Source: Deinococcales bacterium
GTDB lineage: Bacteria; Deinococcota; Deinococci; Deinococcales; JAAFIG01
Reading direction: 5' to 3'
Assembly (NCBI GenBank): GCA_013298595.1
Contig: JAAFIG010000008.1
Span: forward strand, 62,001-126,000
DNA length: 64,000 nt
This document shows, in pieces, positions 19,532-44,113 of this stretch. The notes beneath the pieces were generated by a model. It did no database searches. It saw only the letters and a program-made list of their open reading frames with translations, and was not told the origin of the DNA. The position numbers and the translations under genes were made by a program. The stretch's first letter is position 1. The number at the start of each line of letters is the position of its first letter.

Positions 19532-19852
19532 GTGAACGTGATTGCGTTACGTCGCTTACGACAATTCTGGAAGAAATACCCAGAATCAGAAGGAGCGCTA
19601 CGTGTTTGGTATCGGCGATTGTGCAAATCTGAGCCAAAAAATTTTAGCCAATTACGAGATCAATTTAATGGTGTGGACCTCGATGCGCCTTTTACTATTT
19701 TTGATATTGCAGGTAATAGTTATCGAGTGATTGTCGTCATCGTTTATACAGGACAAGTCGCTTTTATTAAACATGTTTTTACCCATCTCGAGTATGACCA
19801 ATGGAATCAATCTAAAACCAAAAAATTAGCAAAAAAGCAAAGGAAGAACTGA
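19532..19852 (+). CDS. higB: HigB-type mRNA interferase toxin
   Basis: The 106-residue RelE-superfamily toxin is of the HigB_toxin type. Family features are visible: RRLRQFWKKYPESEGALRVWYRRL near the N-terminus, NFSQLRDQF, FDIAGNSYRVIVVIVY and FIKHVFTHLEYDQ. These toxins cut mRNA on the ribosome. The start is the GTG at 19532, set by a TATAGT -10 box 6 nt upstream (leaderless) and by homology; the open frame extends upstream to 19289 but without family resemblance and inside the divergent aroC. The antitoxin gene follows after 1 nt, the toxin-first order typical of higBA. Confidence 0.88.
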   Translation: MNVIALRRLRQFWKKYPESEGALRVWYRRLCKSEPKNFSQLRDQFNGVDLDAPFTIFDIAGNSYRVIVVIVYTGQVAFIKHVFTHLEYDQWNQSKTKKLAKKQRKN

Positions 19853-19853
19853 T

Positions 19854-20273
19854 ATGAATACAAACCAAATTATTAAATCATGGCAAGCAATTCCTGTTCA
19901 AGCTCGAGTTAAACGCCCTGGGTCTGAACACGAGTACGAGCAATTACTTGAATTACTTGACCAAATCACAGACGAATTAGCAGTGCGTGGCGAGAGCATA
20001 GAAAATAGCCCTTTGAATGCGTTGTTTGATCTAGTGAGTGCTTATGCGCTCGAGTGGGAAGCAGCTAACGAAGACCCAATAACTGCTTCGCCTCGAGAAG
20101 TTTTGCAACAACTGATAACCGAAAACCAGTTGAGTTTAAAGCAACTGGAACGCGAAGGAATTGCGAAACAACCTCTTCTTAGTGCGGTTTTATCTGGTCA
20201 GCGTCAAATTAGTAAAGCGTTAGCACTCAAGCTCGCACAACGTTTTCATACTCGAGTTGAATTATTTTTGTAA
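19854..20273 (+). CDS. higA: HigA-type antitoxin with XRE helix-turn-helix
   Basis: The 139-residue antitoxin has an N-terminal part (IKSWQAIPVQARVKRPGSEHEYEQLLELLD) typical of HigA partners of HigB_toxin. The C-terminal helix-turn-helix reads PREVLQQLITENQLSLKQLE... KQPLLSAVLSGQRQISKALALKLAQRF. It should neutralise the toxin and repress the operon through the inverted repeat at 19507-19523. AAGGAAG serves as ribosome-binding site inside the toxin's 3' end. Its own last 12 bp overlap the convergent bshA gene. Confidence 0.88.
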   Translation: MNTNQIIKSWQAIPVQARVKRPGSEHEYEQLLELLDQITDELAVRGESIENSPLNALFDLVSAYALEWEAANEDPITASPREVLQQLITENQLSLKQLEREGIAKQPLLSAVLSGQRQISKALALKLAQRFHTRVELFL

Positions 20274-23163: not shown

Positions 23164-24783
23164 CTACTCTGTTTCGCCACCTTTAGCCCCTGTATCACCA
23201 GGTACAGGAATCATCGGTGTTTGCAGACTGGCTTTTTGCCCTCGAGCTTTTAGTTTGCCTTCTAGCACTTCCATTGCTTTAACCTCACCATGCACTAAGC
23301 GTACTTCGCCTGTGACAGCTTTACTCCACTCGAGTAATTCGGTTTGGTCTGCATGTGCCGAGAATCCACCAACGGTTAATACCTTGGCATTGACAGCGAT
23401 GCTTTCACCAAATAAGGTAATACGATCTGCACCGTCTATTAGCATCCTGCCAAGTCCACCTTGTGGTTGATAACCCACAATCACAACACTGGTTGATTTT
23501 TTAGCAATATGATTTTGCAAATGATGCAAAATTCTGCCACCCGTCAGCATGCCGCCACCCGCAATAATAATTGCCGAACCTTGCATAGTGTTTAAAGCTT
23601 TACTTTCTTCGATGCTGCTGGTGTATTTAAAATTCTTGGGTTCAAAAGGATTGCGGTTATCGGTGTAATACTTTTGCACACTTGGCTCAAATTCGTAGCG
23701 AGCAGCAGCATAAACTTCTTCAATTCGACTTGCCAGCGGGCTATCGACAAAAACAGGTAATGTTGGAATTAAATTGGCTTCTTCCATGCGGGCAATGTGA
23801 TACAAAATATCTTGGGTACGCTCTAAAGCAAAACTTGGAATCAAAATTTTACCACCCATCTGCACTGCATCATGCAGAATCTTGGCAAATTCCTCGAGTG
23901 TTTGCTCAAATGGTTTATGGTCACGGTCGCCATATGTGCTTTCCATCAGTACAATGTCAGCATCTGGGCATGGCATGGCATCAGGTAAAATATCTTTACG
24001 GGCATTGCCAATATCGCCACTGAAAACAAATCGTCCTTCACTGGATTCAAATAAGAAACTAGCACTACCTGGGATGTGTCCAGCCACTTGGGCTGTTACT
24101 CGTAAACCGTTCCACTCGAGTGGTTTGTTGTACTCGATGGGTTGAAACAAAGCCAAGGTTTTTTGTACATCGGTATCATCGAATAAAGGTGGTTTGATGT
24201 CCTTGCGTTTTTTGCGTTGATCACGTTCAAAATCTTCTTTTTGAATTTTTGCTGAATCAAGTAGTAAATGTTCAACAATTTCTCGAGTGCTTGGCGTAGC
24301 ATAAATTGGTTTGCTATAGCCAGATTTTACCAGTTTTGGTAAGCGTCCAGCGTGGTCTAAATGGGCATGAGATAAGAAAAACCCATCGAGCTGAGCAATA
24401 CTGTATGCCCATTCGAGATCGTTTAAGGCATCTAAGGCTTTAGACCCCTGAAATTGTCCACAGTCGAGCATCACATTTTGACCACCCATACGCAGCCAAT
24501 GGTTGCTACCAGTCACTGTGTGGGCTGCTCCATAACTTTCTACCGAGAACTCGGCACGGGTTGTAAGGCGGTTTTTTGTGGTTGCCTTTGCCACAGGTTT
24601 TTTTTCAGGCATAGATTTTACTGCCGCAACAGGTGCCTGTTTGGTTTGTGCTGCTGTTTGAGCTACCAACGCCCCAATTTCGACACCATTCTCGACAATA
24701 ACAATTTCTTCACCATGAGCAGCACGCTCAAGGAGTTTCTCGAGATGCGCTTTAGCTTCTTCGATACTAACTAATGTTTTCAT
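23164..24783 (-). CDS. Phd/YefM-antitoxin domain fused to a beta-CASP metallo-beta-lactamase nuclease
   Basis: The protein has 539 residues. Residues 1-45 look like a Phd/YefM antitoxin N-domain: VSIEEAKAHLEKLLERAAHGEEIVI then NGVEIGALV. An Ala/Pro/Lys linker (about 46-75) leads to a CPSF/RNase J-like domain (about 78-530). Zinc ligands show in SHAHLDH (139-144, HxHxDH), VAGHIPGSA, FSGDIGN and GFSAHAD; ESTYGDRDH and DSPLAS mark beta-CASP. Such enzymes process RNA. In toxin-antitoxin systems the Phd domain binds DNA and its own operator; here no toxin gene is adjacent. The fusion is one frame from a leaderless ATG (TAGACT 7 nt upstream), and no second start is needed. It looks native, with several CTCGAG sites. 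Confidence 0.85.
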   Translation of the reverse strand: MKTLVSIEEAKAHLEKLLERAAHGEEIVIVENGVEIGALVAQTAAQTKQAPVAAVKSMPEKKPVAKATTKNRLTTRAEFSVESYGAAHTVTGSNHWLRMGGQNVMLDCGQFQGSKALDALNDLEWAYSIAQLDGFFLSHAHLDHAGRLPKLVKSGYSKPIYATPSTREIVEHLLLDSAKIQKEDFERDQRKKRKDIKPPLFDDTDVQKTLALFQPIEYNKPLEWNGLRVTAQVAGHIPGSASFLFESSEGRFVFSGDIGNARKDILPDAMPCPDADIVLMESTYGDRDHKPFEQTLEEFAKILHDAVQMGGKILIPSFALERTQDILYHIARMEEANLIPTLPVFVDSPLASRIEEVYAAARYEFEPSVQKYYTDNRNPFEPKNFKYTSSIEESKALNTMQGSAIIIAGGGMLTGGRILHHLQNHIAKKSTSVVIVGYQPQGGLGRMLIDGADRITLFGESIAVNAKVLTVGGFSAHADQTELLEWSKAVTGEVRLVHGEVKAMEVLEGKLKARGQKASLQTPMIPVPGDTGAKGGETE

Positions 24784-24796
24784 TGTACTTAGTCTA
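24784..24796 (-). promoter_or_regulatory. Leaderless -10 (TAGACT, 7 nt to ATG) of the Phd-nuclease gene
   Basis: On the minus strand TAGACT (24796-24791) is followed by AAGTACA and the ATG at 24783. It shows that the antitoxin-like N-terminus is translated. Confidence 0.6.
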
Positions 24797-24929
24797 CATC
24801 AAATGAGGTGGAACAAAGGGATAATCGGTTGTACTACGCAGCTTTTATTGTTGGAGATACATATTTTTGGTGCTCACGTGTGATGAGAATCACACCAGCT
24901 CCGCACTTTTTAAGGTAATCTTATCAATT

Positions 24930-26237
24930 GTGACTTTACCTTCTGTTCAAGGCGACCTTAAACAATTCTCTCCAAAAACAGTGCTTGAACGCATTGCCCA
25001 AGAAAAACTCGAGGGAATTCTGCATTTTCGATTTGCTGATGAAATTATCAATACCAAAATGATTGTGGCAGGTCAGCGCTTAGGTGGTATTATCAGCCCG
25101 TTTGTACCGCAATGGAGTAACTTGCTGGTGCCAAAGTTCATGAACTCAGAAGTTTATGAACGTGCACGATTACAACATATTGATGCCGCAGGTGCTTTAC
25201 GCAGCCTTGAGCAACAAGGTGTATTACCCCGAACAAGCTTAGAAAATATTCTGTCTATCAGAGCTAAAATGGCATTACTGCCGATTTTGAGTCGCTCGGA
25301 TGGTAGATTTTTATTTGTCCCACGAATCGTGACCCAAGATTTCCTCGAGCCAGGTATTGGTATTTCGCCATTACTTGAGCAATTAGCTGCCCAAACCTCA
25401 ATTGATATTGAACCAAGTGCGACATATCAAGTATTTGAAAATACGGTTAAGCATAGCCAGCATTTGGATGCGGTTTCACTTGAAATCATTGCCGCTTTAG
25501 CCAACGAATTAACGTTACTCGAGGTTGCCCAACGCACCCATTTGATGTGGGATGAATTGGGGCAAAAGATTCGTACTCTCGAGTCACAAGGTATGATTCG
25601 TTTGCAATTACCTACCGAAGTGACTCGTTTTGAGGCGTTTGAACGGGCTTCAGAAACCACGTTCAAACCAACTAAACGCATCCGTCAACGCTTGATCCCT
25701 GGTGATCTCGCCCCAGATTTTGTGCTGTCAGGTTTAGGTGGAACAGTTGTGCGCTTATCTGCTTACAAAGGTAAACGCGTACTGATTCGTTTTAATCGTC
25801 AAGCTGGATGCCCAATTTGTAACCCCCGCAACCGCGAATTTATTCGACTCTATCCACAATTCCAACAAGCCAATGTTGAACTCATAGGCATTTTTGGATC
25901 ATCAGAAGATGTTTTACCCTTAGGTATTGGTAAGCAAAACCCACCATACCCAGTGCTTGCCGATCCACAAGATACAATATATGCAAAATATGGTGTGGAA
26001 CGCAGTTTATGGGGATTACTCAGTCCAAAAAATTGGCAAAATATGGATAGTGTTAAAGAAGGCACTAAAATGGAAACATTCCGACCCAATGGTGATGGTG
26101 AAGTTACCCGAATGCCAGCTGAATTTCTGATTAACGAAGAAGGTTATATCGAACAAGCCCATTATCATGCGTTTGCAACAGACTTTTTACCCCTCGAGAC
26201 ATTATTAACAGATTGGCTCAAAATTCGTAGTAAGTAA
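24930..26237 (+). CDS. DUF4388 (PATAN) domain fused to a peroxiredoxin-like domain
   Basis: The protein has about 435 residues. The N-terminus SVQGDLKQFSPKTVLERIAQEKLEGILHF matches the DUF4388/PATAN start, a domain tied to signalling in Deinococcota and deltaproteobacteria. A helical middle (about 90-255) with PILSRSDGRFLFVPR follows. The C-terminal part (about 265-435) is an AhpC/TSA-type thioredoxin fold: LAPDFVLSGLGGTVVRLSAYKGKRVLIRF, then GCPICNPR with Cys294 and Cys297, and YPVLADPQDTIYAKYGVERS. It would reduce peroxides or sense redox state. The GTG at 24930 suits the domain start and has TAATCT 8 nt upstream; an in-frame TTG at 24867 is the alternative. Confidence 0.78.
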   Translation: MTLPSVQGDLKQFSPKTVLERIAQEKLEGILHFRFADEIINTKMIVAGQRLGGIISPFVPQWSNLLVPKFMNSEVYERARLQHIDAAGALRSLEQQGVLPRTSLENILSIRAKMALLPILSRSDGRFLFVPRIVTQDFLEPGIGISPLLEQLAAQTSIDIEPSATYQVFENTVKHSQHLDAVSLEIIAALANELTLLEVAQRTHLMWDELGQKIRTLESQGMIRLQLPTEVTRFEAFERASETTFKPTKRIRQRLIPGDLAPDFVLSGLGGTVVRLSAYKGKRVLIRFNRQAGCPICNPRNREFIRLYPQFQQANVELIGIFGSSEDVLPLGIGKQNPPYPVLADPQDTIYAKYGVERSLWGLLSPKNWQNMDSVKEGTKMETFRPNGDGEVTRMPAEFLINEEGYIEQAHYHAFATDFLPLETLLTDWLKIRSK

Positions 26238-33280: not shown

Positions 33281-34753
33281 GTGTTGAGTGTAGAAAAATA
33301 TATAACCAAGATAGGTAAACTTGATCAACCGATCTATGGGTATCCACAGTACGATGCCCAACAAAATATCCATGCTGATCAATTGTTAACAATAAATCGT
33401 ATTGTAGATTTGATTGCTAAAGACTTGAATCGCCCGCTTAAAATACTCGAGTTAAACTGTGCACAAGGATTTTTTTCGCTACATCTCGCGGCTAAAGGAT
33501 TTGATGTGCTTGGTATAGATTCAAGTAAAAATAATATTGAACTATGTTGTGTTTTAGCAAAAGAAAATCCAACATTAAAAGTGAAGTTTGTCAAAGGTAA
33601 AATAGAAGATATTATTAAAAGTATCAAAAATCAACATTTTGATGTGATTATTGGCATGAATACATTTGCACAACAGATTCGAGACTGGAATTTGCAAAAA
33701 GTGCAAAGTTTTATGAAAAAATTAAACCCATTAAGCGATTTTGCAATTATTGAACTATATCTGCAAAAAAATAATGAATTAATCCCAGCTGTTGAGTTAC
33801 TCGAGCCATATTCTTTTTTTTGTGAAATTCAGGATAACAGTGTAGAATCAAGTATAGTATTTTACTTGTCGACAAATTCACTACTGCTTGATAATCAATT
33901 ATGGAAATTTGATACTTGGAAACAAGAATCACATGCACTAGCTGGTAATAATCATCAAAAAAGCCGCCGTTACTATTTTAGAGATAATCGAATCATTAAA
34001 TTCTTTCGATTTGATGGAATATTAGCAAAAAACAACCAAGATGAATTATTTCGAGAATTCAATTTTTTAAGTACAAACAAAAACTATCCGTGTATTTTTC
34101 GACATCAATTTTCTCAATATTATGGTTGGATTGAAAGAGAATTAATTAATGGGGATAATCTACTAGATTTAATTTTAAGCAAAAAAGATTTTAACACGTA
34201 TAAAGTTATTTATTCCTTGCTTAAACAACTTGTTGCATTAGAAAAAAGCGGACTTTATCATCGAGATTTGCGTTTATGGAATATTATTATTAGCAAAAAC
34301 AATAATGTTCATTTGATTGACTATGGAGATATAACTAATATTAAAGCTGATGTTGTCTATCCAGAAAATATTTTCTTTTCTTTTTTTATTACTATTAATG
34401 ATCTAATTAATCGAGAAGTCCATCCAATATTACCGATTCGAGCTGCAAAAATCAGTCCACATCATCTACCTAAGCCATATTGTGATTGGCTGAGTGAAGT
34501 CTGGTATGAGCCAATGAACCAATGGACTTTTAAGTTGATCTACAAAAAATGGTTAGAAATCAATAAAAATCAGCTAAGCCGAGAGTTATTAGCTCAAGAT
34601 CAGTGGAATGCAAAAACTGAGGAGTACATCAATACGTTAAGGCGGTATCATGATCATGAAATTTCGGAGTTGAATAAACGATTTAACCAATTAAAAGATA
34701 GTTATGATGCTATACTAAAACGTGTCATAAAACTTGAGAAAACACTTGACTAA
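33281..34753 (+). CDS. WbdD-like methyltransferase/kinase with C-terminal coiled coil
   Basis: The 490-residue protein begins with a SAM methyltransferase domain (about 1-190; LELNCAQGFFSLHLAAKGFD, DVIIGMNTF). A protein-kinase-like domain follows (about 215-400) with the catalytic loop HRDLRLWNIII and the metal motif DYGD in place of DFG. A short coiled coil ends it (EYINTLRRYHDHEISELNKRF onward). This is the layout of WbdD of E. coli O9a, which caps the growing polymannan with a methyl-phosphate and so sets chain length before ABC export. The start is a GTG at 33281 with AGGAG upstream. The next gene encodes a long coiled coil. Confidence 0.78.
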   Translation: MLSVEKYITKIGKLDQPIYGYPQYDAQQNIHADQLLTINRIVDLIAKDLNRPLKILELNCAQGFFSLHLAAKGFDVLGIDSSKNNIELCCVLAKENPTLKVKFVKGKIEDIIKSIKNQHFDVIIGMNTFAQQIRDWNLQKVQSFMKKLNPLSDFAIIELYLQKNNELIPAVELLEPYSFFCEIQDNSVESSIVFYLSTNSLLLDNQLWKFDTWKQESHALAGNNHQKSRRYYFRDNRIIKFFRFDGILAKNNQDELFREFNFLSTNKNYPCIFRHQFSQYYGWIERELINGDNLLDLILSKKDFNTYKVIYSLLKQLVALEKSGLYHRDLRLWNIIISKNNNVHLIDYGDITNIKADVVYPENIFFSFFITINDLINREVHPILPIRAAKISPHHLPKPYCDWLSEVWYEPMNQWTFKLIYKKWLEINKNQLSRELLAQDQWNAKTEEYINTLRRYHDHEISELNKRFNQLKDSYDAILKRVIKLEKTLD

Positions 34754-34771
34754 CAGATAAAAGGAGTTAGA

Positions 34772-36025
34772 ATGAAAACAAGAAAACCAAGAAAAATAAA
34801 TAATATGGATTCTGCTCAGACAGCCGAAGTGAATCAAGTAAAAGCGGTTGAACTTGGACGATCTCAAGAGCACTTTGAAGTAGAAAGCAACCACCGAGAC
34901 CGAGATAAAGCCCGTATAATGCATCTTGAGCAAAAAGAATCCATGCTGAAGGTTGAGATTCAGAATTATAAAGATACACTGCAACAAATGCAACAGCAAA
35001 TGGCTGAACTACAAATACAAATTTTACAACAGCAAGAAGAGCATGCCAACGAGTTGCAAGTTATGGTTGAACAAGAACGAGTGCAAGCCCAACACATATT
35101 AGTGCAGACTCAGACTCTTGAAAATCTACAAGCTGAGTGGCAAGAGTCTATGGAAATTGAGCGATCAAAATTAGTTAATGCAGAAATTGAATGTGTGTCT
35201 ATACAAGAACAACTAAGCGATGTAAGACAAAATTTTGCAATTGAACGTACTGTATTTGCAGAAACAACAATCCAACTTGAAGAGTTACATAAACGAGAAA
35301 CTGCGTTGTTGTTAGAATTAAATGATGAAAGGCAAATTCTTCTAGATACTAAGAAATATTTGGAGAATCTTGATGCCACACTTTCCAGTAAGGATCAAAT
35401 CATTTACTTAAAAACTGAAAAGATTGACTATTTAGAATCAAAACTACGTGAAATGGAAAATCGCAAGTTCGCTCAGAATCGAGAATTGGTGTCAAAAAAT
35501 GAGATCATCTCAAGTTTGCAATTTCGAGCAGAACATTTGTCTCAGACTCTTCAGTCTCGAGATGTTCAAGCGGCTTTAATAGAGGGGGCTATACGAGAGT
35601 TGGAAGCTAAGCTATTAGATGCTCAAGAAACAATTAAAGCCACACATACTAAATTAGAGGTTGTTAATAAAGAGTTAGACTTGTGTAATTACAAATTAGC
35701 AACAGCAAATCGGCAAATAGATCTGTCCAGGCATGAAGTATTAGTTATTCATGAAAGTCGATCTTGGAGACTAGCGGCACCGTTCCGATTTTGTAGCAAT
35801 GTTATTCGGAATTTATTTGGATATATCAGAAATAACAGAGCATTTTTAACACCCAGTATTCAATCGACAGAAGTTAAACATGAACATCTTTCGGTATCTG
35901 ATCAAATTAATGTAGAAGCTACCACAAATGCCGATAGTATATCTGAGTTAATAAATACCTCATCCAAAAACATTTATTTATCGTCTAAGGCAACTAAATT
36001 GCTAAAGAGGCAAAGAATAAATTAA
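34772..36025 (+). CDS. Long coiled-coil protein, possible glycan length ruler
   Basis: Of the 417 residues, about 45-330 form one long heptad-rich coiled coil, very rich in Gln, Glu and Leu (NYKDTLQQMQQQMAELQIQ onward). The C-terminus has SRSWRLAAPFRF, a tail motif often seen at the end of glycosyltransferase chains, then a basic/hydrophobic stretch that may touch the membrane. It follows the WbdD-like gene by 18 bp with its own ribosome-binding site (GGAG). In WbdD the coiled coil acts as a molecular ruler for chain length; here a separate rod may do this job (inference). CTCGAG occurs once. Confidence 0.65.
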   Translation: MKTRKPRKINNMDSAQTAEVNQVKAVELGRSQEHFEVESNHRDRDKARIMHLEQKESMLKVEIQNYKDTLQQMQQQMAELQIQILQQQEEHANELQVMVEQERVQAQHILVQTQTLENLQAEWQESMEIERSKLVNAEIECVSIQEQLSDVRQNFAIERTVFAETTIQLEELHKRETALLLELNDERQILLDTKKYLENLDATLSSKDQIIYLKTEKIDYLESKLREMENRKFAQNRELVSKNEIISSLQFRAEHLSQTLQSRDVQAALIEGAIRELEAKLLDAQETIKATHTKLEVVNKELDLCNYKLATANRQIDLSRHEVLVIHESRSWRLAAPFRFCSNVIRNLFGYIRNNRAFLTPSIQSTEVKHEHLSVSDQINVEATTNADSISELINTSSKNIYLSSKATKLLKRQRIN

Positions 36026-36042
36026 TTTGTTGCAAGTGGTGA

Positions 36043-36079
36043 ATTTTTTGTATAAATTTCAGAAATTTATACAAAAAAT
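36043..36079. repeat. 37-bp perfect AT-rich palindrome
   Basis: Two 18-bp arms (left ATTTTTTGTATAAATTTC, 36043-36060; right 36062-36079) flank a single A. It lies 18 bp after the coiled-coil stop, at the border of the CTCGAG-free block. A-tracts and T-tracts on both sides make it a possible bidirectional terminator; an insertion or recombination scar is the alternative. A related sequence (TTTATACAAAAT) recurs near 36171. Confidence 0.75.
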
Positions 36080-36202
36080 AAATAATATTAATAAAAAACC
36101 ATATTGTTTATTTTCCCCCTAAGTTGAATTTGATGCCAAATGTAAAGTGTTATTTACGTGGATAAATTTATTTATACAAAATATCTAATGTAAAGGTGAA
36201 TT

Positions 36203-39200
36203 ATGCGAATAGTTATAGATTTAATTGCTTGTCAGACAAGTTCTAGCAGAAATAGAGGTATAGGAAGATATTCAATGTCTTTAGTCAAGAAAATGTTGGA
36301 GATTGGTGTTAATCATGAATTTTATATTATACTTGACGGTTCTTTTGAGAATACAATAGACAAAATCACTGATGAATTGTCGAATTTTCTTGATAAAAGT
36401 CGTTTTAAAATATATAAACCTTCGCCATTTTCAAGTGAAATTTCTATTAATAATTCTTTAGTTCTTGAATTTAATCAAGAACTAAGAGAGATTTTTATTA
36501 ATTCATTGAACCCAGATGCTATATTGCAAACCAGTTTATTTGAAGCCACAGCTCAATCTAGCAAAAGTATCCCAACAAGTGCTCTAAATTTTACTATTTT
36601 ATATGATCTTATTCCTTTACTTAATAAAGAACGATACCTAACAAATCCAGGAGCAATGAAATGGTATTTTGGTAAACTACAATCGCTAGTTAGAAATGAT
36701 TTTCTACTGGCAATTTCCGAATCAAGTCGTCAAGAAGCAATCGAGGCTCTTTCAGTTTCTCCAGATCGAGTGATAAATATTAGTTCCGCGATTGAACCTA
36801 CATTTCGATTGATTGACATAAGTGAGTCTGAGAAACAGATAATAATGGATAAATATGCAATTAATAGTTCCTTCATATTATATACGGGTGGTATTGACTA
36901 TAGAAAAAATATTGAAGGTTTAATTGAAGCCTATTCTTTATTAGATATAGATATACGAAAAAATCATCAACTTGTTGTGGTTTGCTCGATTCATGATACG
37001 GATCGAGCAAGGTTAATGGATTTAGCAAAAGTAAATGGACTGATGGATAGAGAAATTATCTTTACTGGATTTATAACGGATGATGACTTGTTATTTTTAT
37101 ATAACATGTGTCACTTGTTCGTTTTTCCTTCTATCCATGAAGGTTTTGGGCTACCTGCACTTGAAGCTATGGCGTGCGGAGCACCTGTTATTGTATCCAA
37201 TACAAGCAGTTTACCTGAAGTGGTAAATAATCCGATTGCGCTTTTTGATCCTGCTGAGCCACAGGAAATTGCAAAAAAGATGTGGCTCGCACTGACAGAT
37301 TCTGATTTTCGACTAGAATTATCTCAACATGGTTTAATTCAAGCCACGAAGTTTTCGTGGGGAAAATCAGCGCGAACTGCTTTAGTTGCGATTGAAGATG
37401 CTTTCTCTCAAAAAAGTTTGAATTCGATATCATCTAATTCAATGCAACAGCGTCTCAAGTTGGCTTTTGTTGCTCCTCTTCCCCCATTACGAACTGGAAT
37501 CGCAGTATACTGTACCGATTTGTTGCCTAGTTTATCAAGGCACTATGATATCGATGTGATTGTAAACCAAGACGTAGTTGATGATAGTTGGATTAGTGCA
37601 AACTTTCAGATACGTTCAGTAGATTGGTTTCGACAAAATCATAGCCAGTTTGATCGAGTGCTATACCATTTTGGTAATTCTGCATTCCACGTACACATGC
37701 CAGAGCTTTTAATAGAAATCCCAGGTGTTGTGGTAGCACATGATTTTTTCCTTAGTGGCATGATGCATTGGATGCATGCACAGGATAGTACATTAGATGA
37801 ATTTGGTAAATTGATTTTTGAGAATCATGGCTATCAAGGCATTAAAGATATTTCCCCTGCTTCTTTGCCAAATTTTAACAACAAATATCCAATGAGTAAA
37901 ACGATATTTTCAAATGCTTATGGAACTATTGCACATTCAGACTATTTGATAAATCAGGCAAAAACTTGGTTTGGGTTAAATCCACAGCACTTCAGAAAGA
38001 TTTTGCTTGCCAGAAAACAACAAATGAAGATTAGTACTGCATCTATATCCAGCCGAAATAACAAGCAGACAAGCAAAATCTTCACAGTTTGTTGTTTTGG
38101 TTTTTTGGGTGCAACTAAACTAAATCATAAACTACTTGAAGCATGGTTTTTGTCTTCCCTTGCGAGTGATCAGAACTGCCAATTAATTTTTATAGGTGAA
38201 TTACCTACAAATGACTATGGGAAGCAACTGGAGGAACTGATGGCTACTCATCCAGAGGTTCAAAATATAGTCATCACAGGATTTGTATCAGTATCTGAGT
38301 ACCAAGACTATTTAGCTAACTGTGATTGTGCTGTTCAACTGCGTACGCTTTCGCGAGGTGAAACATCAGGTGCAGTATTTGACTGCTTAGGGGCAGGTAT
38401 TCCATTGATAGTAAACGCAAATGGAACTTTTGCTGAGCTTCCTGCGAATACTACCTTAATGCTAGACGATGATTTCTCGATTCAAGATTTAGTTGATGCT
38501 CTTTACAAAATAAAGTCTGACCCGCAATTGCGCGATCAGATTTCGCAGCAGGGACAAGCATTTGTCAGAACTGAGTGTCATCCAGAAAGAATCGCTCAGG
38601 AATATGCTGATGCTATTGAACATTTTTATCAAAAAAATCCTTTTGCTCAGGGAAGATATACGCTTGAAAAACTAGGCAAAATTTTGCAAAGTGACTTTTG
38701 TTCTCCTATACAAAAGCAGGTTGCTGTTGACGTTTTTTTTGCTAACTTAGATGAGATTGAAAAATGTTATATTGATCTTACACATATTGTTGAGACTCAG
38801 AATTTACCTGATCAACAGATGCTAAGTTTACTTCTTGATACTTTTTTATTGCACGAAAATCAAGGCATTGTGTTTGTTGTATTCAAAAATGATAGATTTG
38901 TTTACGCACACGAAGCTGTATTGAAGCACCTCAACATTACAGATATAAATATAACTAATGACACGGTGTATTTTAAACCACGAGCACCAATATTATTAAT
39001 TAATCCTCACTACTATACTGCATCACAGTCTGAACTAATCACTGATAATCTACTTACATCATTAAGGGTATTTATGCTTACTTCGAGTAATTTAGATGAT
39101 GCAGTAAATATTCCTTCAAATATAGGATTGTTTGTAAAAAAAGGTGCTAGCTTCTTAGTCATGTCTAAATCAGATATGTCTAGAATAGCTATTGCATTAG

Positions 39201-39844
39201 ATTCTTTGACCGACAATCTGAAACAATCGGTTGAGTTTTTCTTTTCGCAAGAGTTGGGTCAAATATTGACCAATGCAAATTTAATTTTCGATGATTCAGG
39301 ATTCAATCCAAGTTCTTTTTTGTCAAAATTTTCTAGTGAAGTGCAACAATTCTCATTACCTATTGGTAATGAATCATCTTATTTTTTTATTCACGACTGG
39401 CAAACTGCTCAATGGAAACCAAATCAACGATTTATTTTTGCAGCGAATTCACCGCAGTTATCAAGTCAAATTGGTATAAAGACAGACTATGCCATCCAGA
39501 GCACCCAAAAATCTGGATTTGTTATATACGGACCATATATAAGTATAAGTGCTGGGCAGTTTAAAGCAAGGATTTTTGCTTCTTTTACCTCGGAAATAAA
39601 TGGAATAATTAACTTTGATGTTATCAGTTTTGGCGGTCAAACTCATAATATGTTGAGTTTTAATCAAGTAGATCTGATAGGTGCAAATATTATTGAAATA
39701 CCATTCAATATTCAGGCTGAAATACACAATCTTGAAGTACGAATGTGGATTGCTGAAACTGTTGAAGTCACTATATTCGGAATGAGTATTGAACGTGAAG
39801 ATATCAGTATCATAACTGAGAAGGGTTTGGGAATAGAGAAATGA
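36203..39844 (+). CDS. Tandem-GT4 glycosyltransferase with a C-terminal beta domain
   Basis: The protein has 1213 residues. Residues 1-405 form a GT4 enzyme ([34 protein letters not shown]). Residues about 415-850 form a second GT4 ([17 protein letters not shown], a donor site around [17 protein letters not shown]). This pairing resembles WbdA-type bifunctional mannosyltransferases that build polymannan. A region of unclear nature follows (about 855-1095). The last ~110 residues ([15 protein letters not shown] to the end) share a domain with the C-terminus of the 40940 gene product. The gene contains no CTCGAG in 3.6 kb and is AT-rich, strong signs of import. Its stop overlaps the next start (ATGA). 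Confidence 0.82.
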
Positions 39845-40875
39845 AGCATAGTTTGATTACAGGTATTTCGGGGCAAGATGGTGCTTACTTGGCACAATCG
39901 TTACTAGAGAAGGGATATAGTGTTTATGGCACATATCGCCGTACCAGTTCGGTTAATTTTTGGCGAATTCAAGAGTTGGGTATTGATAAACACCCTAATT
40001 TTCATTTGGTTGAGTATGATTTAACTGATTTAAGCTCGTCTATTCGTTTACTTGAGAGCACTCAAGCCACTGAGGTTTATAACTTAGCAGCCCAGAGCTT
40101 TGTGGGTGTTTCTTTTGATCAACCACTTGCCACTGCGCAAATTACAGGGTTAGGACCAGTGCACTTGCTTGAGGCTATTCGAATTGTCAATCCCAAAGTG
40201 CGTTTTTACCAAGCTAGTACTTCAGAGATGTTTGGCTTGGTACAAGCAATACCACAATCTGAATCGACACCATTTTACCCAAGAAGCCCATATGGTGTTG
40301 CTAAGTTATATGCACATTGGATGACTGTCAATTACCGTGAGTCATATGATATTTTCGGTTCGAGTGGAATTTTGTTTAATCATGAATCGCCTTTACGTGG
40401 ACAAGAGTTTGTCACTCGAAAAATAACTGATAGTTTTGCCAAAATGAAACTAGGGAAATTAGACACTCTTGAATTGGGCAATATGGATGCTAAACGTGAC
40501 TGGGGTTATGCTAAGGAATATGTGGATGGTATGTATAGAATGCTTCAAGCTGAACAGCCAGATACTTTTGTATTGGCAACCAACCGCACTGAGACTGTTC
40601 GTGATTTTGTGCATATGGCAGCGAAAGCGGCTGGTTTTCAACTTGAGTTCAAAGGAAGCGCTGAACAGGAAATAGCTGTAGATGTTGCCACTGGTAGAAC
40701 GCTAGTGCGGGTTAATCCAAAGTTTTATCGCCCTGCAGAAGTTGAACTACTAATTGGTGATTATGCCAAAGCCGAACAAGTACTGGGTTGGAAACCAAAC
40801 ACAACTCTTGAGCAACTGTGTCAAATGATGGTAGAAGCCGATATCAGCCGTAATCAACGTGGTTTTTCGTTTTAA
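39841..40875 (+). CDS. gmd: GDP-mannose 4,6-dehydratase (copy 2)
   Basis: The 344-residue extended SDR is close to the standard Gmd: [36 protein letters not shown] for NADP binding, ASTSEMFG, YxxxK in [33 protein letters not shown] and [11 protein letters not shown]. It converts GDP-mannose to GDP-4-keto-6-deoxymannose. It is coupled to the tandem-GT4 gene by an ATGA overlap. The gene has no CTCGAG, in contrast to copy 1 at 32234, so the two were probably acquired separately rather than by recent duplication. Confidence 0.92.
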
Positions 40876-40939
40876 AGCATATGACTGAGGAAAATATCTA
40901 GTATCAAAGTGTTGATATAGCCTAGGAATGGGAGAAGCG

Positions 40940-43327
40940 ATGTCACAGGAAGTCAAAAAATATACACCTGAATTTAAACAAAAAGCTATTAAATCGGTAC
41001 GGAAAGGCAAAAGTATCAGTGAAGTAGCTGTAGAAGTGGGTGTGTCTCGAGCAACACTTAATCGTTGGGTAAATGCGGTTTTAGAAAGAGCAACTAAGCA
41101 AGAAAGTAAATCGGATAAAATAATAGCAGATAAGCCTAATATTGCTGTATCTGGACAAAGAAATATTCGATCAGTGCCACAAGAAACCCCTCAAATTATT
41201 GGGCAAAAACCAGTCGGAGAAATTACTTCAGAATTAGTGGCAGAGCCAAAAGAAATATTTTCGGAAGTAATAGTACCAAAAGTTGGTACAACTTTGGATA
41301 TACCTTTTTTGGATTGGGTTAAAATTAATGCCGAAGCCTTAGTTAAAGAGGCTTTTATGGGACTATTTGAACGTGAAATTGATCAACCAAGTCTTGAAGT
41401 ATTTGCAGATGTTTTAAGAGAAAATCCTCAAATGAGTCAAGTATTGATGAGACTTATTAAATCTCAGGAATTTGTAGCGAAATCATTGATGAGTCTTGAA
41501 TTTCAGCAAAAAATACAATCAGTATTAGAAACCCTAGTAACCCACCTTGGTGGAGTAAAAATTGGTGTTTTTCATGAGGTAGCTTCAAACAAGTCAATCA
41601 AGCAACTTCTTATTTCTGCGATGAGTCGTGTATCTTTAGAAATAGAGGATCATTTTTTTTACCTTCATCAAAATCCAGGTGTTTACTTTCACTACAGTCA
41701 TTTTTCTAGATTATCTTCTTTGAAAAACTTGGGAATCATTTTTATTGCAGATGAAGCATGGTTGCCGTTTGCGCTTGCTATAGCAGGCTATGTGCATACT
41801 CAATATCAACTTGAAACAGTATTGGTATATGGACACTGGTCACCTGGAATTGCCGCTGCCGCTACATTATGTGCATCAGTGTTTGACGTGATTAGTTTGC
41901 AAAAATTGAAAGAACTTCCTCAAAGCTCAATGTTTTCTCCAAAAATCATTATTTCACACTCCTATGGCTGGAAAGATGAAACAACGTATTTATTGAAGAC
42001 CTTTCCGATGGCGGCTTTCTTTATTTATGCAGATGGTTTTAAGAATGAAGTAAGTATAGACTTAAACCAGCATAAAATAATAGGAGGTGCAATCTTTTTT
42101 GAGTACGAACCTCAGAATAAACCCATAAATGCACTTACAATAATTCCCGCTAAAGCAGTACTTTTAGCAAGCGATAAAATCTCTGCAATATACAAATTTC
42201 AGCCAAGTTTAAGCAATAGCAAGTTTGAAAACTATGCTGTGGTTTACTTGCGCTACTGGGGTAAAGGTGACTATAAATTTACATTTGAAGAAGTAATGCA
42301 ATGCTTCTATGATACGATCACTCGCTATATTACCCCGAGTACAGTCGTAGTTATTAAAAATGATAAACGTGCTGATCAGATGTTATTTCCAGAGATCAGG
42401 AAACTACTTGTTAATCAGAAGTATACGGTATTTACTTTTGAGGAGTACTTATTACAACATCAAGTGGATATTGCTTACCAAGCATTACCTGTTGAATATT
42501 TTCTTGCACGTGGACTGTTATGTGATGCAAAAACGCATGTTGTTTTTGATAGTAGCATTGGGTTTATCTTGGCGACACATCCTAATGTACGACGAGAGAC
42601 AAATATTGTTATTGGTGCAGTCGTGGATACTTTTAAGGAGAAAATTGAATTTGAACCTGAACTGAGTGAAAAAGAAATTGAAACACAGCTTTATACTACT
42701 CATCCTGGACTCTACACCATTAGTTATTATTCAAAACAATATACTGATGCCATTTTTGCAACAGTAGGTTTTCGTAATTGTGAGCTTATAGAAAGTAAAG
42801 GAAATTTTCTATTCTACATAGTAATAAATAGACAAACGGTAGGGAAATTATTGGAAATTGTTAATTCTGATTTGCAAACTATTGAACAGAAAAGAGATGC
42901 TGTCACTGTTTTTTTTGCTAATTTAGATTTGAATTTGATTAGCAATCAACAATTCGTTTTTCCTGCTTTTTCGGCACAAATATTGAATTTAGTAGGGAAA
43001 AAAATTGATAATTATATTCAAAGTACGCAACAATCTGGATTTGTTATGTATGGACCTTATCTTAATTTAGGTAAGGGACAATATATAGCAAGGATTTTTA
43101 CTGAATTCCCTACCAAAGTAGAAGGTCAAATTAAACTTGATGTGATTAGTGCTGGTGGTAAGATTCACAGCGCTATCACTCTAAATCAATCTGAGCTAGT
43201 TAATGAACATATCCTCGCGGTTTCATTTATTGTTGAACTAGAAGTACAAAGACTTGAGGTAAGGATGCGGATTTCAGAAACTGTTGATGTAATTATATAC
43301 GGATTGACTATTTCTCGTGAAGATTAA
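40940..43327 (+). CDS. Transposase-type HTH fused to DUF4214 and polysialyltransferase-like glycan enzyme
   Basis: The protein has 795 residues. Residues 1-50 are an IS3/IS911 OrfA-type helix-turn-helix: KYTPEFKQKAIKSVRKGKSI, SEVAVEVGVSRATLNRWV. After a linker, about 125-180 resembles DUF4214 (EAFMGLFEREIDQPSLEVFADVL). The middle (about 205-640) looks like a capsule transferase of the polysialyltransferase type, best seen in LPVEYFLARGLLCDAKTHVVFDSS. The C-terminal ~110 residues (IQSTQQSGFVMYGPY onward) match the tail of the tandem-GT4 protein. I chose the ATG at 40940 because GGAG lies 5 nt upstream. NeuB and NeuA downstream fit a sialic-acid-type donor. No IS OrfB or terminal repeats were found. 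Confidence 0.68.
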   Translation: MSQEVKKYTPEFKQKAIKSVRKGKSISEVAVEVGVSRATLNRWVNAVLERATKQESKSDKIIADKPNIAVSGQRNIRSVPQETPQIIGQKPVGEITSELVAEPKEIFSEVIVPKVGTTLDIPFLDWVKINAEALVKEAFMGLFEREIDQPSLEVFADVLRENPQMSQVLMRLIKSQEFVAKSLMSLEFQQKIQSVLETLVTHLGGVKIGVFHEVASNKSIKQLLISAMSRVSLEIEDHFFYLHQNPGVYFHYSHFSRLSSLKNLGIIFIADEAWLPFALAIAGYVHTQYQLETVLVYGHWSPGIAAAATLCASVFDVISLQKLKELPQSSMFSPKIIISHSYGWKDETTYLLKTFPMAAFFIYADGFKNEVSIDLNQHKIIGGAIFFEYEPQNKPINALTIIPAKAVLLASDKISAIYKFQPSLSNSKFENYAVVYLRYWGKGDYKFTFEEVMQCFYDTITRYITPSTVVVIKNDKRADQMLFPEIRKLLVNQKYTVFTFEEYLLQHQVDIAYQALPVEYFLARGLLCDAKTHVVFDSSIGFILATHPNVRRETNIVIGAVVDTFKEKIEFEPELSEKEIETQLYTTHPGLYTISYYSKQYTDAIFATVGFRNCELIESKGNFLFYIVINRQTVGKLLEIVNSDLQTIEQKRDAVTVFFANLDLNLISNQQFVFPAFSAQILNLVGKKIDNYIQSTQQSGFVMYGPYLNLGKGQYIARIFTEFPTKVEGQIKLDVISAGGKIHSAITLNQSELVNEHILAVSFIVELEVQRLEVRMRISETVDVIIYGLTISRED

Positions 43328-43338
43328 AGGGGATATAA

Positions 43339-43383
43339 ATGAGTTATATTCCAATACCCATTTTTTCAAAGATGGTTCTGTGA
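43339..43383 (+). CDS. 15-codon ORF, leader or gene remnant
   Basis: ATG at 43339 has a good ribosome-binding site (AAAGGGGA) and encodes MSYIPIPIFSKMVL before a TGA. It lies between the HTH-fusion gene and the IMPase gene. A normal translation signal on so short a frame suggests the broken 5' end of a lost gene, or a leader peptide. Confidence 0.3.
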   Translation: MSYIPIPIFSKMVL

Positions 43384-43393
43384 TAAGGTGTAA

Positions 43394-44113
43394 ATGAATC
43401 CTGAAAATACTGTCAAAAATATACTGATAGCAATAAAGCAATTCATTGAAGATAACTCATTTTCAATAAACGAAAATCGTTATCAAATTCAGTACAAATC
43501 AGATGGAAGCCCAGTCACAGCTGCCGATGTATTACTCGAGAATAAAATTAGAGATTTTTTGCAAGGCTTTGACTTACCTATCACACTGATTGGCGAAGAA
43601 TCTTTTGATCATAAAACACTTGAAAAACTGGAGTATGTTGCCATTCTTGATCCAATAGATGGTACAGAAAACTTTTGTTCGGGCTTCAAAGAATGGGGTG
43701 TTTCACTTGGTATTTGGCATCATCAAGAACACCTTGGTAGTTTATTAATGATGCCTGAATTTGGGCTTTCCTTAATGACGGGTGATACTTGTGAGAAAGT
43801 TCCATTCTCGAGAATTACAGGTTTCTCGTCTTCATATCATGATGCGATTGCGACAGGTATCAAGGATGCTGTTGAGTACCGAGTGATGGGTTGTGCGGTT
43901 TACAATATTTACAATGTGATTCGTGGTTCTTTTTGCCGTTTTATCAACCCCAAAGGTGCCTATATTTGGGATTTATTACCTGGCTTGATGCTTGCGCTCG
44001 AGCATGGTTGTGAGGTGTTACTTGATGATGAGCCTTTCTATGGCGGATTTCTCGACCCAACTCGAAAGTATCGCGTTGACATACGCCACCGATACGATCT
44101 TCATTCTGGGTAA
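43394..44113 (+). CDS. Inositol-monophosphatase-family phosphatase
   Basis: The 239-residue metal-dependent phosphatase is of the IMPase/CysQ superfamily. Metal ligands are in GEESFD (near residue 67), DPIDGTENF (near 87-95) and the C-terminal AYIWDLLPGLMLA in place of the usual WDxAAG. Family members act on inositol phosphate, histidinol phosphate, PAP or sugar phosphates. It lies directly before NeuB and NeuA, and a nonulosonic acid route through a 9-phosphate needs a phosphatase. I infer that it may supply that step. Its 3' end overlaps the neuB reading frame by about 90 bp. CTCGAG returns here (three sites). Confidence 0.8.
   Translation: MNPENTVKNILIAIKQFIEDNSFSINENRYQIQYKSDGSPVTAADVLLENKIRDFLQGFDLPITLIGEESFDHKTLEKLEYVAILDPIDGTENFCSGFKEWGVSLGIWHHQEHLGSLLMMPEFGLSLMTGDTCEKVPFSRITGFSSSYHDAIATGIKDAVEYRVMGCAVYNIYNVIRGSFCRFINPKGAYIWDLLPGLMLALEHGCEVLLDDEPFYGGFLDPTRKYRVDIRHRYDLHSG

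Follow-up and report, generated by a model that had tools for sequence, protein, structure and literature searches.

A Phd/YefM-type antitoxin domain fused to a TTHA0252-type beta-CASP ribonuclease in one genus of Deinococcales, with a possible role as its dimerisation module

A ribonuclease of the metallo-beta-lactamase (MBL)/beta-CASP family in a Deinococcales genome begins with the N-terminal half of a Phd/YefM-type antitoxin, and this half is maintained by purifying selection in both species in which the fusion was found. We propose, with a probability of roughly 0.5, that the antitoxin domain has been exapted as the dimerisation module of a housekeeping RNase. Type II antitoxins are viewed as two-part proteins, with a DNA-binding half and a toxin-binding half. 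If our reading is correct, only the first half has been reused here, on an unrelated housekeeping RNase and with sequence signs of lost DNA binding, which would provide a testable case of toxin-antitoxin parts turning into cell machinery.

Domain architecture

The source is a draft genome of 4.58 Mb whose closest relatives are Deinococcales MAGs. In the window (the whole 64,000-nt stretch of DNA that was analysed) the fusion is an ORF of 539 aa that coincides exactly with 23164-24783 of the minus strand and is free of interruption, in agreement with the preliminary description. Its features are given below, with pN/pS values that here and throughout are ratios of raw proportions, since dS between the two species has reached saturation.

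23164-24783, minus strand: whole fusion ORF, 539 aa (sister-species orthologue with the same architecture)
24661-24783, minus strand: Phd/YefM-type N-terminal domain, residues 1-41 (TIGR01552 above cut-off; AF2 model; pN/pS 0.14)
24553-24660, minus strand: Ala/Pro/Lys-rich linker, residues 42-77, predicted to be disordered (pLDDT below 50; pN/pS 0.84)
23221-24552, minus strand: MBL/beta-CASP/RMMBL ribonuclease, residues 78-521 (Pfam PF00753, PF10996 and PF07521; TTHA0252 match)
24352-24369, minus strand: metal-binding motif HAHLDH, residues 139-144 (invariant in the family alignment; aligned to TTHA0252 H59-H64)
23167-23220, minus strand: C-terminal tail MIPVPGDTG-KGGETE (conserved in the two fused proteins only; pN/pS 0.07)
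24791-24796, minus strand: -10 box TAGACT, 7 nt before the ATG, putative leaderless promoter (spacing in the window; motif as in PMC12340547)

Profile searches for both halves, as suggested in the preliminary description, matched each of them, and the Phd similarity whose absence it had regarded as decisive was found. Residues 5-40 matched the NCBIfam profile TIGR01552 (phd_fam) with 27.5 bits against a cut-off of 20.8, and residues 1-75 searched alone gave 32.4 bits (E 4e-8), while Pfam PF02604 came just under its gathering score of 29.8 (E 6e-5 / 2.7e-6; 23.1 / 27.5 bits). The Phd profile match ends at position 41 of 74, that is, after the N-terminal half. The claim of a Phd-type domain at the N-terminus holds. 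An AlphaFold2 model of residues 1-46 (pLDDT 84) predicts a helix (7-22) followed by a hairpin with strands 27-31 and 34-39. With this 46-aa model Foldseek placed the N-terminal domains of P1 Phd and VapB46 on top, weakly (E about 1), and VIA-align ranked VapB46 first with a Z of 3.6, HU-like proteins scoring similarly; we take these fold matches as no more than supportive. In the PDB, phmmer found no match with the 42-aa domain alone, and a profile built from 16 sequences recovered VapB46, Phd and others. Crystallised truncations close to the length of the domain exist for VapB46 (6jqy, 44 aa) and Phd (4zlx).

The linker, which had also been described from the sequence, lies between the two halves and is predicted to be disordered from the full-length AlphaFold2 model, in which residues 42-77 have pLDDT below 50; this shallow model (3 sequences, pLDDT 65) served only to place domain boundaries and to check the nuclease fold. 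That check gave a VIA-align Z of 33.7 between the modelled nuclease and TTHA0252. Likewise, residues 82-521 matched TTHA0252 with E 3e-107 (about 41% identity over residues 79-525) and contain all metal and catalytic motifs, as expected from the description of a full MBL/beta-CASP nuclease: S475, H477 and H498 correspond to TTHA0252 S378, H380 and H400, and the HxHxDH motif is present, including the equivalent of H61. By its sequence, the fused protein is a TTHA0252-type MBL/beta-CASP ribonuclease, for which RNase activity is predicted, and it is the sole enzyme of this type in the source genome. Each genome of the family has a second, separate RMMBL gene, presumably that of RNase J. Two other assignments of the fused nuclease were rejected: RNase J itself (TIGR00649, 22.3 bits against a cut-off of 400) and the type VII CRISPR nuclease Cas14 (NF045584, 349.9 bits against a cut-off of 800, with a match that stops at profile position 426 of 612).

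Start of translation and selection

The start at codon 1 deserves attention, given that the orthologues of sister genera have no such extension and begin directly with the MBL domain, and that misannotated N-termini of leaderless genes are known in this phylum (PMC12340547); both observations would agree with an ordinary nuclease whose true start lies near residue 75, its N-terminal extension being neutral or misannotated. In the source, TAGACT ends 7 nt upstream of the ATG, and in the sister species TAATCT lies 6 nt upstream of its ATG, placing a -10 box exactly ahead of codon 1 in both. Both boxes are of the same TANNNT type as the leaderless -10 motif described for the phylum (PMC12340547), and of the TANNNT occurrences upstream of 44 long ORFs in the window, 11 have a spacing of 6-7 nt, which is more frequent than any other. 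A search around residue 75 gave no internal start that both species share and that is accompanied by a promoter or Shine-Dalgarno signal.

Selection argues in the same direction, since pN/pS between the two species is 0.14 for residues 1-40 and 0.15 for the nuclease, against 0.84 for the linker. Thirty-five of residues 1-40 are identical between the species, 20 of these 35 being encoded by different codons. Judged from these ratios, the Phd part is under purifying selection equal to that on the nuclease and the linker is nearly unconstrained: the domain is selected, and the linker need only exist. Together, box spacing and selection on residues 1-40 support the leaderless start proposed earlier, and a neutral or misannotated extension is highly improbable.

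Phylogenetic distribution

A search for the same architecture, which had been recommended, located the fusion, within Deinococcota, only in the sister species (G001, locus L035; apparently JAAFJQ010000204.1), with 78% identity over residues 1-539. Among 111 Deinococcota genomes, matches starting at residue 1 were confined to the two species of this genus, the other 109 having none, and among about 150 Phd matches in Deinococcota only the two fused ones sit in reading frames longer than 500 aa. The fusion is thus known from two sequences only, one or both of which derive from a MAG. Two other genomes of the family (G002 and G003) have orthologues of 65-66% identity that begin at the MBL domain. 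The tree of the nuclease part places the fused pair within the family, the unfused G003 protein branching next to it and the unfused G002 protein next outside (SH-aLRT 97-99). Because the fused pair nests among unfused family orthologues, the simplest history would be a single gain of the Phd domain at the base of the genus.

The C-terminal tail MIPVPGDTG-KGGETE is near-identical in both fused proteins (L035 3290-3343) and missing from an unfused orthologue (locus L036). This tail may be a second genus-specific feature, possibly one that arrived with the fusion.

In tblastn searches of 263 plasmid and 10 phage records, no match among those listed reached residues 1-39, the 45-aa domain alone had no match in plasmids, and the fusion was not found in viral contigs. 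It is undescribed in the open-access papers searched, and a description elsewhere may exist. The parts were already known; the combination was absent from the other Deinococcota genomes, from the plasmid, phage and viral collections and from the open-access papers searched.

Conserved and substituted residues of the antitoxin-type domain

Our comparison set comprised 36 stand-alone Phd proteins encoded in Deinococcota loci, many of them antitoxins of 76-90 aa with a VapC-like PIN gene beside theirs. Both fused copies retain A10, K11, L14, L17, G24, E25, G33 and L39, as well as the hydrophobic pattern of the helix and hairpin. In both, Glu replaces Ser15 (Ser in 35 of the 36 stand-alones), Arg/Lys31 (35 of 36) and Pro35 (30 of 36), and residues 1-41 have net charges of -4 and -2, whereas the stand-alone proteins average +1.7 (range -1 to +5).

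These substitutions bear on DNA binding, which had been attributed to the domain. In E. coli YefM, R10 and R31 were reported to be essential for operator binding (PMC4803016). Position 31 of the fusion aligns with YefM R31 and is Glu in both species, and the R10 equivalent, Lys11, is still basic, so that the basic operator-contact pair is found at only one of its two sites. The attribution of DNA binding came from the family to which the domain belongs, and the residues themselves (Glu31 and the negative charge) argue against it; judging from the sequence, the parts for gripping DNA have probably been lost. Some nucleic-acid contact may persist, considering that K11 is still basic and that charge on one face is short of proof of lost binding.

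The stand-alone relatives continue for a further 30-40 residues with an LGx...FFxPLPEEEL..W-like segment, in whose place the fusion has the linker. In Phd-type antitoxins the degradation signal lies mainly in the disordered C-terminal part, and the absence of this part here weighs against a stability handle, that is, recognition of the antitoxin-like N-terminus by Clp/Lon proteases that would make the nuclease level stress-responsive. Such a handle would be in keeping with the attachment of the domain through a disordered linker and with Phd being a ClpXP substrate, as indicated by a reference listed in PMC4803016; we consider it very unlikely.

Genomic context

In the source the fusion is flanked by a convergent ORF of no known kind and a divergent DUF4388-AhpC/TSA gene. 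The immediate neighbours include no toxin gene, consistent with what had been noted beforehand. The divergent neighbour (24867-26237) combines a DUF4388 region at its N-terminus (E 2.7e-5, narrowly short of the cut-off) with a C-terminal AhpC/TSA peroxiredoxin domain.

The two fused genes have different flanking genes, and their upstream regions do not align. A search for inverted repeats in 24700-25000, as a candidate operator in the gene's own promoter, yielded one chance-like pair of 8 nt, 38 nt apart, and a search for YefM-like sites (GTAC words near the start) yielded two AGTACA 46 bp apart, compared with the TGTACA pair at 12 bp in yefM-yoeB; both candidates were rejected. Binding to its own promoter, one of the roles first suggested, thus finds no support, given the unconserved upstream DNA, the lack of a palindrome and Glu at the YefM-R31 equivalent in both species. 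These same observations, with the negative net charge of both copies, make it quite unlikely that the domain is still a nucleic-acid binder, acting as a repressor of the gene's own promoter or as an anchor of the nuclease on DNA or RNA, even considering that Phd/YefM N-terminal domains are operator binders, that K11 is basic, and that KH domains have an analogous job in archaeal aCPSF1 (PMC3095777).

Pairing with a toxin encoded elsewhere, another of the original suggestions, is not supported in its classical form, as the C-terminal neutralising segment is absent. A related possibility is that the fused domain pairs with a chromosomally encoded Phd/VapB protein as a heterodimer, or that a VapBC complex captures it, which would link the nuclease to the toxin-antitoxin state. 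Stand-alone Phd antitoxins are encoded elsewhere in both the source genome and that of the sister species, relatives in the phylum adjoin VapC PIN toxins, and the fused domain retains the dimer core; yet its identity to any stand-alone domain found is only about 40-50%, its acidic wing matches none of the 36, and neither genome has a phd-vapC locus co-localised with the fusion, which leaves this possibility unlikely. Because the tail is replaced, position 31 is Glu, upstream DNA and neighbours are not shared and no palindrome is present, an autoregulating, toxin-pairing antitoxin is likewise unlikely on the sequence evidence.

Several other elements were observed in these loci. Directly ahead of the fused gene, the sister species has a DUF433-DUF5615 pair (antitoxin/PIN-like) and a Uma2 gene (L035 448-1717); the fusion begins 9 nt past the Uma2 stop. 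In the window, a HigB-type toxin gene (PF09907, E 9e-20) is followed by an ORF resembling a HigA-type HTH antitoxin (no Pfam match) at 19589-20273; the pair adjoins a chorismate-synthase-like gene and lies about 3 kb from the 3' end of the fusion. The palindrome CTCGAG occurs 264 times in window positions 1-64000, against 5.75 expected from dinucleotide shuffles (maximum 14), and at 5-7 per kb in loci of three other family genomes, against 0.2-2.8 per kb in four loci from other Deinococcota families; it is a HIP1-like over-represented palindrome. In 33806-43534 (about 9.7 kb) CTCGAG is nearly missing, with two sites inside an otherwise dense window, and this near-absence suggests a recently acquired island.

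Possible function

The N-terminal part of Phd is its dimerisation domain (PMC4803016). Because the dimer core is kept and the DNA face is acidic, pairing would be the most economical role for the fused domain, and of the roles first suggested this is the one we favour. We postulate that a Phd-derived domain of about 40 residues was joined once, at the base of the genus, to the genus's only TTHA0252-type RNase, the donor being the N-terminal, folding and dimerising half of a VapB/Phd-type antitoxin whose toxin-binding tail was lost or never acquired. Acidic residues would have replaced the DNA-contact face, leaving a protein-protein module by which two subunits, each on a long flexible linker, could associate via their Phd folds. 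The outcome would be a tethered nuclease dimer that, in analogy to archaeal KH-beta-CASP dimers, might bind RNA with greater avidity or act on it more processively.

TTHA0252 acts as a 5'-3' exoribonuclease and probably also as an endoribonuclease, and in log phase about 200 mRNAs change when it is lost (PMC4229858); therefore the fused enzyme, by homology, is probably an mRNA-decay factor. The fuller claim, that an antitoxin DNA-binding/dimerisation domain was domesticated as the oligomerisation module of an mRNA-decay nuclease, with its DNA face selectively acidified and the arrangement fixed by purifying selection, is tentative, and we hold it at slightly less than even odds.

Comparison with known systems

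The fused protein shares with Phd/YefM antitoxins (P1 Phd, E. coli YefM, M. tuberculosis VapB46 and the VapB-type proteins of Deinococcota) an N-terminal alpha/beta-hairpin domain of about 40 residues and the patterns A-K-x-x-L-x-x-L-L and G-E-E-I-x-I-x-x-x-G. It differs from them in having neither a toxin-binding C-terminal segment nor a partner toxin gene, and in carrying Glu at the near-invariant Ser15, Arg/Lys31 and Pro35. TTHA0252 of Thermus thermophilus (PDB 2dkf, 3ie1), an MBL/beta-CASP RNase, is the same nuclease but begins at the MBL domain, without the Phd domain, the linker or the GGETE tail. Archaeal aCPSF1/FttA (KH-KH-MBL-beta-CASP; PDB 2xr1, 2ycb) resembles the fusion in having small accessory domains N-terminal to an MBL/beta-CASP nuclease, but these are RNA-binding KH folds and not Phd, and the fusion scores 249 on TIGR03675 against a cut-off of 580. 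In archaeal KH-beta-CASP enzymes, including MTH1203, dimerisation raises activity (PMC3095777), and if our reading is correct the fused protein would represent a bacterial counterpart to these archaeal beta-CASP enzymes with N-terminal accessory domains.
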